A stretch of 64,000 nt of DNA from Nitratidesulfovibrio sp. SRB-5. GTDB taxonomy: Bacteria; Desulfobacterota; Desulfovibrionia; Desulfovibrionales; Desulfovibrionaceae. A program made the position numbers and the translations under genes. Positions 22,088 to 58,689 of this stretch are shown here, piece by piece (the first letter of the stretch is position 1; every line of letters starts with the position of its first letter). A model generated the notes under the pieces. The model was not told the origin of the DNA. It searched no databases and worked only from the letters and a program-made list of their open reading frames with translations. The stretch lies in the NCBI RefSeq assembly GCF_019931275.1, contig NZ_JAIOTY010000002.1, positions 640,131-704,130 on the forward strand, given 5' to 3'.

Positions 22088-23026
22088 ATGAGCACCCGCC
22101 ACGAATCTTCCGCAGGCCACACCGCCACAGCGCCCGACGCACCGGGCACCTCCGGGACGTTGGGCACGCCTGACGCCTCCCACGGACCGGGCGCGCCTGC
22201 TGCATCGGGGGCCGCGACGGGCATCGACCCTTCAGGGGCCTTCGTGCCTGCGGATATGCGCGTGCACCACGAAACCTTCCGGGTGCGCGGGTACGAGGTG
22301 GGGCCGGACGGCACCGTTTCCGCGCAGATCATCTGCGACTACCTGCAAGAGGCGGCGGGGGTGCATGCGGACAGGCTGGGGCTTTCGCTGGCGGCGCTGC
22401 ACGAACAGGGGCAGGCGTGGGTGCTGGCCCGGCTGGCGGTGCAGGTGGAGCGCGCCCCGGCGGAGGGCGAGACGGTGACGGTACGCACCTGGCCGTGCGG
22501 GGTGGAGCGGCTGCAATTCCGGCGCGACTACCTGATGCTGGGGCAGGACGGGGCGGTGGTGGCGCGCGGGGCCTCGTTCTGGGTGGTCATCAATCTGGCC
22601 AGCCGCAGGCCGGAGAGGATCCCCCCTACGGTGGCGGCCCTGCTGCCGGAAAATCCGCCGCTGGCGCTGGATGGCGGACTGCTGGGCGACCGGCGGCCCC
22701 CCGCGGCGGCGGAAGACGCCGCTCCGCTTTCCTCCCGGTCCTTCGCGGTGCGCCGGGCGGACATGGACCGCAACCGCCACGTGAACAACGTGCGCTACCT
22801 GGACTGGGCGCTGGAAGGCGTGGCCGACGAGGTGCAGGAGACATCCCGCCCCGTGTGGCTGGACATGCACTTCCGGGCCGAGACGGTGTACGGCGACACG
22901 GTGGAAGCGCAATGCCTGCCTGCGCCTGCCGATACGCCCGCGCCGGGTGCCGCGCGCTTCGTGCACGTCCTTACCCGCCGCTCCGATGGCCGCGAGGTGG
23001 CGCGGGCGCTTACCGGCTGGCGGTGA
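22088..23026 (+). CDS. Acyl-ACP thioesterase
   Basis: Double hotdog-fold thioesterase of the FatA/FatB-like (acyl-ACP) family, releasing free fatty acids from ACP. The product is 312 residues. The first hotdog spans about residues 57-165 (DYLQEAAGVHADRLG, then YLMLGQDG). The second starts near 215 with the active-site segment MDRNRHVNNVRYLDWAL, which supplies the Asn and His of the family. The N-terminal 55 residues are Ala/Gly/Ser-rich low complexity. The start has AGGGA upstream. Confidence 0.88.
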   Translation: MSTRHESSAGHTATAPDAPGTSGTLGTPDASHGPGAPAASGAATGIDPSGAFVPADMRVHHETFRVRGYEVGPDGTVSAQIICDYLQEAAGVHADRLGLSLAALHEQGQAWVLARLAVQVERAPAEGETVTVRTWPCGVERLQFRRDYLMLGQDGAVVARGASFWVVINLASRRPERIPPTVAALLPENPPLALDGGLLGDRRPPAAAEDAAPLSSRSFAVRRADMDRNRHVNNVRYLDWALEGVADEVQETSRPVWLDMHFRAETVYGDTVEAQCLPAPADTPAPGAARFVHVLTRRSDGREVARALTGWR

Positions 23027-23316
23027 TGGGGTATTCCCGAGGATTTCTTTTGCCGTAGCCGCCCTGTTTGGTGGGCTCGGAGCGAATTCTGTCGGTATCT
23101 GTCCCTGTTAGTGTATGAGGGCGCACGGGTAAGGTCCTGTCTGTGCAGCACACCTTGCCTTGTCCCCGCCCCATCCAACGACCGCCTTTCGCGCGGATTG
23201 CGCCCGCAGCCGGAGATCGGCGCCGGAGGCCTTGCGACGGCGGAAGCTCCGGCGTCGCGGGTGCACCGCAGACCGACCAGAGGTACACGCAGAACCCGAA
23301 CTAACACCAAGGCTTC

Positions 23317-23563
23317 GGGAGCTTCGCGCGCATTGGCGTCACCGGCGGCAGATCACCCGAAGGCGCCTTGCGCCGCAGGGAAGCTGCCGCCGCAGGGACG
23401 CCGCGCAGGATGCCCCGGGGTTCCAAGGGGCGGAGCCCCTGGAACGCGGGGGTGCAGGGGGTGTTCGTTACAACACCCCCTGCCCGTCGGAGACATAACG
23501 AAATCGAGCGTGATCGAAAGGGCACACGTGTCTTCGTAGAAACCGTGTCCGACAAGGCACAAC
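23317..23563 (+). repeat. Structured element, family C copy 1
   Basis: First of three copies of a multi-hairpin element. In order: outer stem GGCGGCAG/CTGCCGCC enclosing GGCGC/GCGCC (23344-23391), stem TTCCAAGGGG/CCCCTGGAA (23421-23444), stem GCAGGGGGTGTT/AACACCCCCTGC (23454-23483), then the block GTCGGAGACATAACGAAATC (23486-23505) and a tail ending in TTCGTAGAAACCGTG. Other copies: 25285-25536 (minus) and 25688-25940 (plus). Stems differ by paired changes between copies. No coding potential. Confidence 0.85.
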
Positions 23564-23634
23564 GCCTCTTCTTCCCTTTCTTGCTGTCCTTCTTCTTCTC
23601 CCTCCCCCGGCCCCTCCCCCTTCCCCTCCCCAAC

Positions 23635-23671
23635 AAAAAAACGGGGGAAGGAACCTGCGTCCCTCCCCCCG
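23635..23671 (-). terminator. Intrinsic terminator of the HD gene
   Basis: Minus strand: CGGGGGGAGGGA (23671-23660), a short loop, TTCCTTCCCCCG (23653-23642), then seven T residues (23641-23635). It lies about 30 bases after the HD-domain gene stop. Confidence 0.75.
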
Positions 23672-23701
23672 CGTCTCGCAAGGAATGCATCAATCCCGGC
23701 G

Positions 23702-25027
23702 CTAGCCGAAATTCTTCGCCTTGTACTCGCGCACGTAGTCCACGGCTTCGGGCACGCTGGTCACTTCGCCCGCCACCTGCGCCTTCAGCAGCGCATCGCG
23801 CAGCATGCCCACCTGGGGGCCGGGGTGCAGGCTGGTGAACTCCATGATCTCGTTGCCGTTCAGCAGGGGCTCCAGCATCTGTTCCGGGGTTTCGGCGCGC
23901 TCCAGGTACTTCATGTTGTGATTGAAGTAGGTGTAGCTGCCGCCGCGGGCTTCCAGATCGGCACGGGCCATTTCGATGAGCCGGGGGTATTCGTCCAGCG
24001 ACTTGAAGCGGCGGATGCCCCGGTCGGTGAGCATGAAGTGGAAGCGCATGTGATGGCGCACCAGATGGCACACCTGCTCCACGTCTTCCGGCGAGAAGTG
24101 CAGGCGGCGCAGCAGCTTGCGCGTTACCTTCGCGCCCACGCGATGGTGCTGGTAGAAGTTCCACTTACCGTCGAAGTATTCCGCCGTGTACAGCTTGCCC
24201 ACGTCGTGGAACAACATGGCAAAGGTGCCCAGCCAGTCGTAGTTGTACTCGCCTTCGGGGTAGTGGTGCATGCAATCAAGCGTATGGTCGAGCACCGACT
24301 CTTCCGCACCCTCGTCATTGCGCTGCTGGCGCACGCGGGACAGGGCCGCGACTTCGGGCAGCAGGCCGTGCAGCACCTGCGAATCGAACAGCAGCCGCAC
24401 GAACTTCCACATGCACTCGGCTTCCACCTTGCGCCACTCGTCCATGATGTCCGAGATGCGCACGTAGTCCAGCACGCGGCTGGCGGCGCGGATGATGGCT
24501 ATCCACGAGTTGGGTTCTATGGGCAGGTCGAAGTTGGCCGCAAAACGCATGGCCCGGATGACCAGCAGGTAGTTGCGGCGCAGGGTTTCGTCGGGAATAC
24601 CACGCAGTTGCACCTTGCCCTTCGAGAAGTCCTCGAAGCCTTCGTACACATCGCCGGTATGGGCGATGTACGGGCAGGCCAGTGCGGGGGGCATCTTGCC
24701 CTGCTCTTCCAGCACGCGCAGCATGCGCGGGGTGATGCGGGCCAGGGTATGTTCCGGATGCGACGATTCTTCGGTGTCGGTGTGGTAGAAGCGGATCAGC
24801 GCTCCGCCTTCACGCATGGTGGCGACCACGCCGTCTTCGTTGGAGCGTTCGAGGCTGGGGAAAAGCTTGCCGAGCTCTTCGTAGTCGGGCTCGCAGGCGA
24901 TGTCGATTTCGATTTCGCGGCCGTCCAGCAGTTCTTTCTGCAACTGCGCGTTGACCACGTAGGCGTCGTAGCCGTTGCGAAGGATGGCCTTGCAGATGGC
25001 TATGGCGTCCTTGAAAGGTTGGCTCAT
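23702..25027 (-). CDS. HD-domain protein related to CCA-adding enzymes, nucleotidyltransferase motif degenerate
   Basis: A 441-residue protein with the layout of a tRNA nucleotidyltransferase: an N-terminal nucleotidyltransferase-like segment (GYDAYVVNAQLQKEL, then EIEIDIACEPD), a poly(A)-polymerase-type RNA-binding helix region (LRRNYLLVIRAMRFAANFD), and an HD phosphohydrolase domain (AMLFHDVGKLYTAEY, then HHRVGAKVTRKLLRRL). The catalytic Gly-Gly-x-x-Arg-Asp signature is replaced (VNAQLQKE) and the metal motif reads EID. Nucleotide addition is therefore doubtful, and 2',3'-cyclic phosphodiesterase or phosphatase activity of the HD domain is the likelier remaining function. It is flanked by family C elements on both sides. 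Confidence 0.82.
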   Translation of the reverse strand: MSQPFKDAIAICKAILRNGYDAYVVNAQLQKELLDGREIEIDIACEPDYEELGKLFPSLERSNEDGVVATMREGGALIRFYHTDTEESSHPEHTLARITPRMLRVLEEQGKMPPALACPYIAHTGDVYEGFEDFSKGKVQLRGIPDETLRRNYLLVIRAMRFAANFDLPIEPNSWIAIIRAASRVLDYVRISDIMDEWRKVEAECMWKFVRLLFDSQVLHGLLPEVAALSRVRQQRNDEGAEESVLDHTLDCMHHYPEGEYNYDWLGTFAMLFHDVGKLYTAEYFDGKWNFYQHHRVGAKVTRKLLRRLHFSPEDVEQVCHLVRHHMRFHFMLTDRGIRRFKSLDEYPRLIEMARADLEARGGSYTYFNHNMKYLERAETPEQMLEPLLNGNEIMEFTSLHPGPQVGMLRDALLKAQVAGEVTSVPEAVDYVREYKAKNFG

Positions 25028-25284
25028 CCCTGTCCTCCTGAAAGTGATGAAAAGCGCGCCCTACGGCGCGGTGCCATCCGTGCATCACAGGCGCGGCCAG
25101 AAAAGTCAAGGCGGCTGGCGTGGGCTGGCGGGGCCGGTGGATGTGGGCCGGGCATGGCCGGTGGCACCGGATAGGGCAGCATTGGGTGCGTGCGCACGGG
25201 AAGTGTGTCTGCCTGATTGTGCCAAAATGCACAAAAGTGGCGTGGGATGCAAGGGGGAGGGGGGATGAGGGGTAAGGGGAGAGG

Positions 25285-25536
25285 GTTATGCCTTGGTGGT
25301 TACGGTTTCTACGAATACACGCCAGCCCTGTTGATTACTCTCGATTTCGTTATGTCTCCGACGGGCCGGGGGTGTTGTAACGAACACCCCCTGCACCCCC
25401 GCGTTCCAGGGGGGCTTCGCCACCCCTGGACCCCCGGCGTCTCTTGCGCGGCGTCCCCACGGCGGCAGCTTCCCTGCGGCGCTGGGGCGCCTCCGGGTGA
25501 TCTGCCGCCGGTGCCGCCAATGCGCACCAATCTCCC
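25285..25536 (-). repeat. Structured element, family C copy 2
   Basis: Minus-strand copy, upstream of the HD gene and in the same direction. It matches copy 1 across its whole length: stem GGCGGCAG/CTGCCGCC, inner GGCGC-CCCA-GCGCC, a CCAGGGG/CCCCTGG stem, the GGGGGTGTT/AACACCCCC hairpin, and the invariant GTCGGAGACATAACGAAATC block. Its tail (TCAACAGGGCTGGCGTGTAT) resembles copy 3 more than copy 1. Confidence 0.85.
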
Positions 25537-25687
25537 GGTGACGTGACTAGGCTATGAGTTGCGTGTGTATTTGGGCCAGTTCAAAGGAAACGTGAAGCGC
25601 GTAGAAGCGTGTGACGCCGGGCTTTGACGGCGGCACATGCGTCGCAACGGGGGCGTGGGTAGGGCGACCAAGTGGGATTTAGGCTAC

Positions 25688-25940
25688 GGGAGCTTGGCGC
25701 ACATACGTATTCCGCCGGGCAGATCACCCAAAGGCGCTCCAGCGCCGGAGGGAAGCTGCCCGGTGAAGAATGCGGTGCAGGATGCGTTGGGGGTCCAGGG
25801 GGGGCGAAGCCCCCCTGGAGCGCGGGGATGCAAGGGGCCATCGCTAAATGGCCCCTTGCCCGTCGGAGACATAACGAAATCGACTGTACTCAACAGGGCT
25901 GGCGTGTATTCGTGGACGCCGTGTCCAATAGCGCACGACC
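25688..25940 (+). repeat. Structured element, family C copy 3
   Basis: Plus-strand copy ending 34 bases from the pyrC stop. Compared with copy 1 the first stem is CCGGGCAG/CTGCCCGG (three successive base pairs changed on both sides) and the third is GCAAGGGGCCAT/ATGGCCCCTTGC (four pairs changed on both sides). The following GTCGGAGACATAACGAAATC block is identical. The 25028-25973 gap holds no gene beyond these two copies. Confidence 0.85.
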
Positions 25941-25973
25941 TCTCTTCTTTGCCTGCGGCCCAGCCCCGTCCCC

Positions 25974-27287
25974 CTACACCACTTTCACTCCCCCAAGCCA
26001 CAGCGCCTTCACCCGGCCCACCAGTTCCTTCCCCAGGAACGGCGTGTTCAGACTCTTCGAGTGCATGGTCCCGCGCGAGGGCACCCACTTCTCTTCCGGG
26101 TCCAGCAGGAAGAAATCCGCCGGGTCGCCCACGTTGAATCCGTTCACGGGCAGCCCGAATATCCTTCCCGGTTCCGTCGCCCACAGGCGGATCAAATCCG
26201 CCTCGGTCAGCACGCCTTCACGCACCAGCCCCCAGGTCAGGGCCACGGCGGTATCAAGGCCGGTGATGCCATTGGGCGCCTCGTCCAGCGGGGTTTCCTT
26301 TTCGTGCGCCGCGTGCGGGGCATGATCGGTGGCCAGGATGTCGATGACGCCGGATTGCACGGCCTCACGCAGGGCGGCCACGTCGTCGTCGGTGCGCAGG
26401 GGCGGGTTGACCTTGGCCTTGGTGTCGTAGCCCAGCAGTTCCTTGTCGGTCAGCAGCAGGTAGTGGGGGCAGGTTTCCGCCGTTACCGGCACGCCACGCT
26501 GCTTGGCCCAGGCGATCAGTTCCACCGAGCGGCGGCACGAGATGTGCGCGAGGTGGATGGGCAGCTTCAGGTAGTCGGCCAGCAGGATGTCGCGCGCCAC
26601 GTGCAGCGCCTCGCCGATGTCCGGCTGGCCCTTCACCCCTATGCGCCCGCTGGTCTCGCCCTCGTTCATGTGCGCGCCCTTGGCCAGGTAGGGGTCTTCG
26701 CAGTGGTCGATGACCACCTTGCCCTGGTCGGCGGCGTATTCCACGCAGCGGCGGAACATTTCGGTATCCGGCACGGGCGCGCCGTCGTTGGAAAAGGCCA
26801 CGCAGCCCGCCTCGGCCAGTTCGGCCAGTGGGGCAAGCTCCGTGCCCTTCAGCCCCACCGTGGCCGCGCCGATGGGGTGCAGGCGCGGGCCGTGCGGCCA
26901 GTGGCGGCGGGCGGTGTCGATCATGTCGCGGGTGATGGAGGCATCGTCGTTGACCGGTTTGGTGTTGGCCATGCACAGCACGGCCCCGAACCCGCCGTGG
27001 GCGGCTGCCGCAAGCCCGCTGGCGATGTCTTCCTTGTACTCCTGCCCCGGCTCGCGCATGTGGGTGTGCGCGTCGATCAAGGCCGGAAACAGCACCATGC
27101 CCTTGGCGTCGATGCTCTCCGCCCCGGCGGGCGCGGCGCCGGAACCGGCGTCCGTACCGGCGGGCGTGCAGCCCGCGCCGCTGTCGGTCACGGACGCGAT
27201 GCGCCCGTCGGCCACGGCAACGTCCACCATGCGCCCCAGCAGGCGGGCATTGCGAAGGAACAGGGAAGGGGAAGTGGTGGCGGTCAT
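25974..27287 (-). CDS. pyrC: Dihydroorotase, class I
   Basis: Third step of pyrimidine synthesis: cyclises carbamoyl aspartate to dihydroorotate. The 437-residue protein shows the metal site [32 protein letters not shown] and ILATDHAPH, all expected for a class I enzyme. A Gly/Ala-rich insert of about 20 residues occurs near position 37-60. Its ATG overlaps the pyrB stop by four bases, so the two are translationally coupled, and class I dihydroorotases often associate with aspartate transcarbamoylase. Confidence 0.96.
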
Positions 27288-47312: not shown

Positions 47313-47698
47313 GGGCTGTATCCAAATTGTCTTTTCGCTCGTTGGCTGGCCGACCCGAAGGGCGCGTAGCGTGCCCGTTAAGCGAGTCTGCGAGCTATAC
47401 GGGCATCGAGCGCAGAGCGGTCAAAATTCACCTGCCATAGCTTTGCTGTCCTTATCCGTAAGACTCGCGCTACGCGCTCGCCTAACGGCTAAGGCTCGGT
47501 TGAGTACGATAAGAGTACGCGTTGCGGTCCTCATCCGTAAGGTTCGCTTCGCTCACCCAACGGCTGAGGCGCGCTGCGGTCGCCATCCGTAATGCTCGAA
47601 GACTCGCATAACGGCTGCCGCACTCCCTCATGGCAGGCTTGTTTTCCTTGCCAACGAACGAAAATTTTAATTTGGAAACAGCCCCTGAGACGAAACCT
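47310..47698 (+). repeat. Inverted-repeat element, family B copy 3
   Basis: The longest and best-preserved copy (389 bases). Its ends TAGGGGCTGTATCCAAATTG and AATTTGGAAACAGCCCCTGA are inverted repeats that extend to TTCGCTCGTTGGC/GCCAACGAACGAA. Inside are at least four REP-like hairpins: 47370-47405, 47440-47494 (CCTTA/TAAGG), 47525-47575 (CCTCA/TGAGG) and 47577-47625. It fills the whole uspA-aroC gap. Confidence 0.85.
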
Positions 47699-58309: not shown

Positions 58310-58568
58310 GCGCGGTCACGTTGCTTGCGGAATCCGCGCTTTGCGGACGCCATCCGTAAGATTCGCGCAAACGCTCATCTAACGGCTGCCGCCTTTTTGG
58401 GCCGGGCGGCGTTGGCGCGTGATTTTCGCTGCTCACGTACGCCAGTACGCTCCGTACGAAAATCGCGCGCCGCCTTGCCCGGCCACAAAAAAACGTAATT
58501 CCTTGCACCGTGCCCACACCAACCATCCGCGCTGGAGGACCGGCGCGGAGTATAAGGAAGAAAGGCAG
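58310..58568 (+). repeat. Dispersed hairpin element, family A copy 3
   Basis: Arms GGCCGGGCGGCGTTGG-CGCGTGATTTTCG (58400-58428) and CGAAAATC-GCGCGCCGCCTTGCCCGGCC (58457-58484) enclose GCTCACGTACGCCAGTACG. A REP-like unit (58345-58393) precedes, and the GCTGG/CCGGC hairpin with GGAGTATAAGGAAGAAAGGC follows. The variable part of the stem differs from copies 1 and 2 on both arms. Confidence 0.8.
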
Positions 58569-58689
58569 TTCCACGGATGCAGGAAAGACGGTGGAGGAAA
58601 GGCCGGGGAAGAAGACGAGGCAGTTCTGTCGTGGGAAATTGGTGGTGGCTGCCCAAGAATGTCCCTGCCAACGCACCCCGTCCACGATG

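Follow-up and report, generated by a model that had tools for sequence, protein, structure and literature searches.

A long two-armed repeat of hairpin modules in Nitratidesulfovibrio retains its fold while much of its stem sequence varies

Eukaryote foldback transposons surround a small centre with long inverted arms that are modular and carry tandem subrepeats, which is also the plan of the bacterial repeat described here; the repeat differs in that no target duplication was found and its arms consist mostly of hairpins. BOX elements are modular too, in the order boxA-boxB-boxC, but unlike the present repeat they are not known to be polar two-armed palindromes. REP/BIME sequences of the GTAG and CGTC superfamilies are 20-40 bp long with a GTAG or CGTC end, and transcription termination and mRNA stabilization are named as roles of REP elements (PMC3733652; 'Desulfovibrio' is absent from its main text). 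The present repeat resembles them as a high-copy intergenic palindrome that is frequently found in inverted pairs and clusters (PMC3733652), yet, judged by size and design, it differs in having arms that reach several hundred nt and combine different kinds of hairpin in a set order. Like REPINs, it consists of two inverted units flanking a less conserved spacer; unlike the REPIN/RAYT system, its units are far larger and no Y1-transposase match was found in six of eight genus genomes (PMC3116915, in part). With BOX of Streptococcus pneumoniae, compared by design only, it shares being interspersed, structured and slow to move, and effects of BOX elements on co-transcribed genes have been suggested (PMC3049150, in part). 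A literature search for these repeats, or for Desulfovibrio repeats or non-coding RNA (ncRNA), found no description within its scope, most subscription journals lying outside it.

The window (64,000 nucleotides of contig NZ_JAIOTY010000002.1 of Nitratidesulfovibrio sp. SRB-5, positions 640,131 to 704,130) had been reported in an initial annotation to hold three copies of a multi-hairpin element, at 23317-23563 (+), 25285-25536 (-) and 25688-25940 (+). Coordinates and strands were confirmed, and the observation turned out larger than first reported, the three copies being parts of two elements. The half element U-A-B-C-R at 23174-23563, the first of them, is flanked by genes for an acyl-ACP thioesterase and an HD-domain protein; the second, at 25285-25940, lies between the HD-domain gene and an amidohydrolase-family gene and is two-armed, its left arm being without an inner module. 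Copies 2 and 3 form the arms of this single element, a relation that had been missed, as had both the U and V hairpins and an outer stem that encloses stem 1. The parts are listed below, with E values for the three A hairpins against an A model that includes all three among its 92 training sequences.

23174-23286, plus strand: U hairpin, inner module of the U arm (nhmmer U match 23206-23286), related to A since A model R1 also matches it (23174-23279, E 7e-4)
23311-23416, plus strand: A module of copy 1, with outer stem, stem 1 and conserved internal loop AGATCACC/GGGAAGCT (A model E 1.9e-26)
23416-23452, plus strand: B hairpin of copy 1 (sequence, fold)
23454-23483, plus strand: C hairpin of copy 1, the stem 3 of the initial annotation
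23486-23563, plus strand: R module of copy 1, containing the invariant block (profile match)
25285-25362, minus strand: R module, left arm of the second element (profile match 25290-25360)
25365-25394, minus strand: C hairpin, left arm of the second element, with one mismatch near the base
25395-25435, minus strand: B hairpin, left arm of the second element (sequence, fold)
25436-25542, minus strand: A module, left arm of the second element (A model E 1.6e-22)
25535-25592, no strand: locus-specific centre of the second element, 58 nt, its first bases overlapping the A-model flank
25593-25661, plus strand: V hairpin, right arm of the second element (profile match)
25682-25788, plus strand: A module, right arm of the second element (A model E 5.3e-25)
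25789-25828, plus strand: B hairpin, right arm of the second element (sequence, fold)
25830-25859, plus strand: C hairpin, right arm of the second element
25862-25940, plus strand: R module, right arm of the second element (profile match 25864-25934)

The block that had been called invariant, GTCGGAGACATAACGAAATC, is identical across all three window copies. Stem 1 is, as had been read, GGCGGCAG/CTGCCGCC in copies 1 and 2 and CCGGGCAG/CTGCCCGG in copy 3, with three pairs altered on both sides; together with four such pairs in stem 3 between copies 1 and 3, these make up the at least seven two-sided changes originally counted. The reading of stem 3 needs one correction: in copy 2 this stem ends with CCCCCGGC and carries, close to its base, a mismatch that is not compensated. 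Folding exceeds what chance would give: as outward RNA, copies 1, 3 and 2 gave z-scores of -6.5, -5.9 and -2.5, respectively (three of 200 shuffles of copy 2 folded equally well), and the opposite strand of copy 1 gave -5.8.

Profile searches over the sampled loci revealed that a full element consists of a locus-specific centre and two arms pointing outward, each running from the centre through an inner hairpin (U in one arm, V in the other), one to three A, B, C and one to five R modules. The six module kinds are mostly hairpins and are 30-107 nt in length; a few arms (L079 and L023, for example) break this grammar, either lacking A or having it alternate with V. The two-armed rows (n=55) have inverted arms, and half elements exist too. 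R units terminate both outer ends on opposite strands, forming terminal inverted repeats. Counting orthologous and twice-sampled loci separately, as was also done for the grammar and for gene placement, 25 of the 55 two-armed rows had U opposite V, nine had UV opposite V and one had U opposite UV, while 11 carried V on one side only, three U on one side only and six neither; U opposite U or V opposite V was found in none of the 55. The A internal loop (AGATC.CC/GGGAAGCT) is largely invariant in two genera and the R core is a conserved unpaired segment, and these sequence features suggest that a dedicated binding partner may exist.

Additional hairpins were observed near these modules. A separate hairpin of ~36 nt, GCCGTTAGGCGAGCGCGAAGCGCGAGTCTTACGGAT, stood between A and R in 16 of the 22 occurrences counted, by eye within B or C loops (L001 3124-3159, L005 3238-3273, L006 2356-2391 and others; window 47454-47489 and 58352-58386), and a variant in L063 is longer, with a further nested piece. 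At window 58400-58580, a long hairpin with a TGCTCACGTACGCCAGTACGCT core precedes CACCAACCATCC..GAGTATAAGGAAG; by eye it is similar to a module upstream of A-B-C-R in a second genus, and it is perhaps another hairpin family of the window. Inserts with transposase-like reading frames were seen by eye in the B/C region of two elements (L068 2255-3520 and the right arm of L204).

Many more copies than the original three exist in the genome. About 18 places, beside gene ends, hold an element; a DNA search with copy 1 gave 58 matches, and sixteen surrounding stretches were analysed. The A model matched 38 times in this genome (35 above 83 bits, one of the lowest being a U) and, in the complete genome G007, 33 times at 14 places (32 above 92 bits). 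Because nearly all matches score high, few decayed copies are seen at the match threshold of E 1e-5. Copies were present in all eight same-genus genomes searched, this one included, and the R core was identified in Nitratidesulfovibrio liaohensis XJ01, N. oxamicus NCIMB 9442, Desulfovibrio sp. A2 and two MAGs. Across the bacterial family, A model R1 matched 10 of 119 genomes at E 0.01; six of these belong to the genus of the window, two to genus g52 and one to genus g27, the last being G084; the two g52 genomes gave at least nine and at least five matches and g27 at least one, copy numbers being lower bounds, with 32 candidates per genome scored in this other-genus search and 10 in that with a second model, R2. 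R2 was built from 15 other-genus A copies and no own-genus copy, and found at least eight A copies at eight places of this genome (E 7.7e-9 to 4.6e-6). Among 395 phylum genomes it matched seven at E 0.001, six of genus g52 plus this genome; five g52 genomes searched with R2 had no match, thus the family is patchy in that genus. Read by eye, the other-genus loci show the A-B-C-R order and tandem R-like units, strongly diverged, and are sometimes arranged as divergent pairs (L185, L204). Neighbour genes differ between genera in the loci compared, with one possible exception.

In L207 of genus g52, an element at 1500-1740 sits between an RlmN-like gene and an ortholog of the window HD-domain gene, on the same side of the ortholog as the first window element; this coincidence is not counted as evidence, since ~0.25 such cases would be expected by chance (rough estimate). 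Loci of genus g6 of the same family (L025 and L036, both at 1480-1650) carry rows of GC-rich B/C-like hairpins without A or R. The matches in G084 (L129) and in a Verrucomicrobia genome (L092) were dismissed, both by eye appearing to be chance within apparent coding sequence. The A pattern had no match in viral contigs, and a single viral-contig pattern match (L228) was dismissed, as it overlaps open reading frames and its R match is only 26 nt. Plasmids and phages gave no match to the repeat, thus carriage by them was rejected.

Conservation of the fold was assessed on 92 A copies, obtained by excluding copies with an nhmmer score of 60 or less and those within 10% of a kept copy (137 reduced to 91) and restoring one window copy. 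In these, 95.7% of 1,932 stem cells pair, versus 31-45% with slid partners. Parsimony on an all-column tree counted 19 pair-keeping and five pair-breaking double changes in A, with 0-3 pair-keeping for slid partners. In A, U, V and C combined, 40 pair-keeping double changes stood against seven others, although such counts are not strictly independent events. Among 31 reciprocal-best orthologous A pairs, eight two-sided changes led to a standard pair and two did not; 54 of 1,178 stem letters differ between the orthologs, so ~1.2 double changes of any kind would be expected in 589 pairs. The 34 one-sided changes comprised 15 G.U, six A.C and 13 other. Unpaired columns of the same pairs differ at 94 of 1,283 letters, thus stems change somewhat less than loops. 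An APC-corrected G-test with a tree-preserving null, the kind of covariation test that had been proposed as a check, found none of 21 A pairs at E<0.05 (best 0.83); subfamily structure probably costs this test power, yet the outcome stands as negative. The element is one in which much stem sequence varies while the fold is retained, and paired positions do not vary independently. The original statement that this pattern indicates selection for the fold is supported by the pairing, the double changes and the other-genus family, but not by any significant pair in the tree-aware statistic; the case that the folded element is kept by selection is accordingly strong, not airtight.

Whether the fold acts as RNA or DNA is hinted at by strand asymmetries. 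Read in the outward frame, the 133 one-sided stem changes of A, U, V and C comprised 58 G.U, 32 A.C and 43 other (G.U versus A.C, p 0.008); the weak A pairs 29-90 and 30-89 are excluded from the A counts, as from the orthologous-pair counts above. The excess is carried by A (33:14) and C (11:1) and is absent in U (4:7) and V (10:10). In unpaired A columns C>T (28 of 734) exceeds G>A (17 of 1,094), which might feed the G.U excess of A; this bias weakens when all 155 A copies are taken (p 0.08) and is reversed in R, thus mutation bias is an incomplete account. Moreover, 45 of 52 V copies have a G.U pair inside their stem. When the two strands of each copy were compared, the outward one was the more stable for V in 58 of 59 cases, for A in 143 of 169, for other-genus A in 14 of 15, for R in 128 of 186 and for U in 34 of 39. 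This is a hint only, as copies are homologous and random window 100-mers have a mean strand difference of -1.8 kcal/mol (sd 7.6); V (-8.0) and U (-4.1) are the only modules clearly separate from this background.

Fifteen of 21 flank groups are common to at least three species with varying module number, a count over sampled loci only in which group 1 merges several places. At the HD-gene locus, compared in eight genomes, place 1 is occupied in seven (intergenic 576-824 nt) and empty in G002 (gap 160 nt, ancestral or deleted), the one clean empty site found in relatives; place 2 has an R fragment only in G003 and is collapsed in G007. A place on the ffh side holds an element or its remains in all seven readable genomes. 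At the L004 place the element is full in three genomes and partial in two (one at a contig end), was deleted in G004 with by eye an R tail left, and is replaced by other sequence in G007 (G002 was unreadable). Single places are thus dispensable, the first being empty in G002 and others deleted or collapsed.

Across 133 A copies from 15 hand-listed place groups, 76 had their nearest relative at the orthologous place, 45 had it at a different place of another genome, eight within the same element and four elsewhere in the same genome. The 45 make exchange between places possible, and the scarcity of the last class gives no support to within-genome concerted evolution. In 41 full elements the mean longest direct repeat was 5.12 versus 5.03 in the null, giving no signal of target-site duplication. 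A search of the eight genus genomes, two of them <90% complete, for the RAYT Y1 transposase (PF01797) had no match in six and partial matches in two, one with a stop (this genome) and one at a contig end; a reverse transcriptase was present in only two of the eight and is not genus-wide. An origin by either enzyme is not supported, these being the only families searched, since there was no intact RAYT and no genus-wide reverse transcriptase; integron attC was dropped on inspection by eye. With places shared, copies deleted or collapsed and no target-site duplication signal, the family appears to be mainly inherited in place and lost by deletion.

The reading tentatively preferred, with confidence somewhat short of even, is that of an old interspersed repeat, inherited in place, with its fold under selection, that probably serves as an RNA boundary at gene ends, a complex REP/BIME-like element. 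We infer that the family may have spread in an ancestor via a route since lost, timing and manner included, and would since have been passed down in place; its hairpins may be retained because the nucleic acid is used in its folded form, more likely as outward-read RNA. Its most probable role would be that of a structural boundary at gene ends, formed by arrays of stable RNA hairpins, which may restrict read-through, invasion by antisense transcripts and decay from the 3′ end between adjacent genes, often convergent ones. Such a use is favoured as it is the simplest and has already been proposed for REP elements. Genes were called by a simple codon score; 29 of 96 rows stayed unplaced because one of their sides, in most cases the one at the end of the locus, had no called gene. 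The 67 placed rows were in 34 convergent, 30 tandem and three divergent gene gaps; the 30 window gaps of at least 150 nt are seven convergent, 15 tandem and eight divergent. Orientation of the element relative to genes varies. Neither window element was found to have a T-run terminator in its arms, and the one strong terminator belongs to a neighbouring gene.

Possible but doubtful is a reading of the arms as separate, free-standing genes for structured ncRNA, transcribed outward from the centre, whose repeated A and R domains bind a protein or ligand. The conserved unpaired segments (the R core, and the A internal loop across genera) are consistent with this, as are the outward-strand hints from G.U counts and strand stability, the consistent absence of U opposite U or V opposite V among the two-armed rows and the centres, which are AT-richer than the modules (57 versus 64% GC). 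However, sigma-70 signal in 38 centres was not above shuffles (mean z 0.14 and -0.17, SE 0.16), 23020-26000 holds no promoter-like sites, and half elements and collapsed copies are numerous. Rfam has no match to the element either: at gathering score the whole window yields only an Mn (yybP-ykoY) riboswitch (RF00080; 9650-9833, 65.2 bits) and a tRNA, both outside the element, with nothing better than E 0.39 in 23000-26100 and only 5S rRNA in seven other-genus loci. The ncRNA class suggested in the initial annotation is no more than a candidate. More doubtful still is its fullest form, a new class of large bacterial ncRNA loci, in which divergent pairs of several-hundred-nucleotide RNAs, 14 (G007) to 18 (this genome) per genome, would be marked by U and V, carry repeatable domains (one to three A, one to five R), bind a dedicated partner via the conserved internal loops and hold fixed positions at gene ends in different species.

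The other suggestion made at the outset, a mobile element, is likewise no more than a candidate, and a selfish non-autonomous element of foldback or REPIN-like kind, served by a transposase in trans and now mostly still, is considered unlikely. Its interspersed distribution, with neighbour genes differing between genera (the possible exception apart), its inverted-arm design, its rarity between divergent genes and the clean empty site would all suit such an element, but places are common to several species, the target-site duplication signal is absent, no gene is called inside any element, and among the eight genus genomes the Y1 transposase is only partial in two and reverse transcriptase confined to two. 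Furthermore, stem compensation goes on in place, as the 31 orthologous A pairs reveal. Least probable of all is that pairing is kept without function by template switching during replication, a described process that perfects quasi-palindromes (PMC8794818, in part). Between species, C hairpins at one place do differ in runs of as many as four adjacent pairs, and the loop is inverted in one C type, as such a process might produce; yet it should presumably erase the near-invariant A internal loops and the lasting G.U pair of V, both of which persist.

The bacterial palindromic repeats compared here are short, and the best studied of them are tied to a transposase, whereas the present repeat is long, with none found, and follows a strict module grammar with a polar left and right arm. 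It is a natural test case for whether repeats of this kind persist because of RNA structure at gene ends, as parasites or through hairpin-mending mutation, and the test is practical, since orthologous places exist in full, collapsed and deleted versions across eight genomes.
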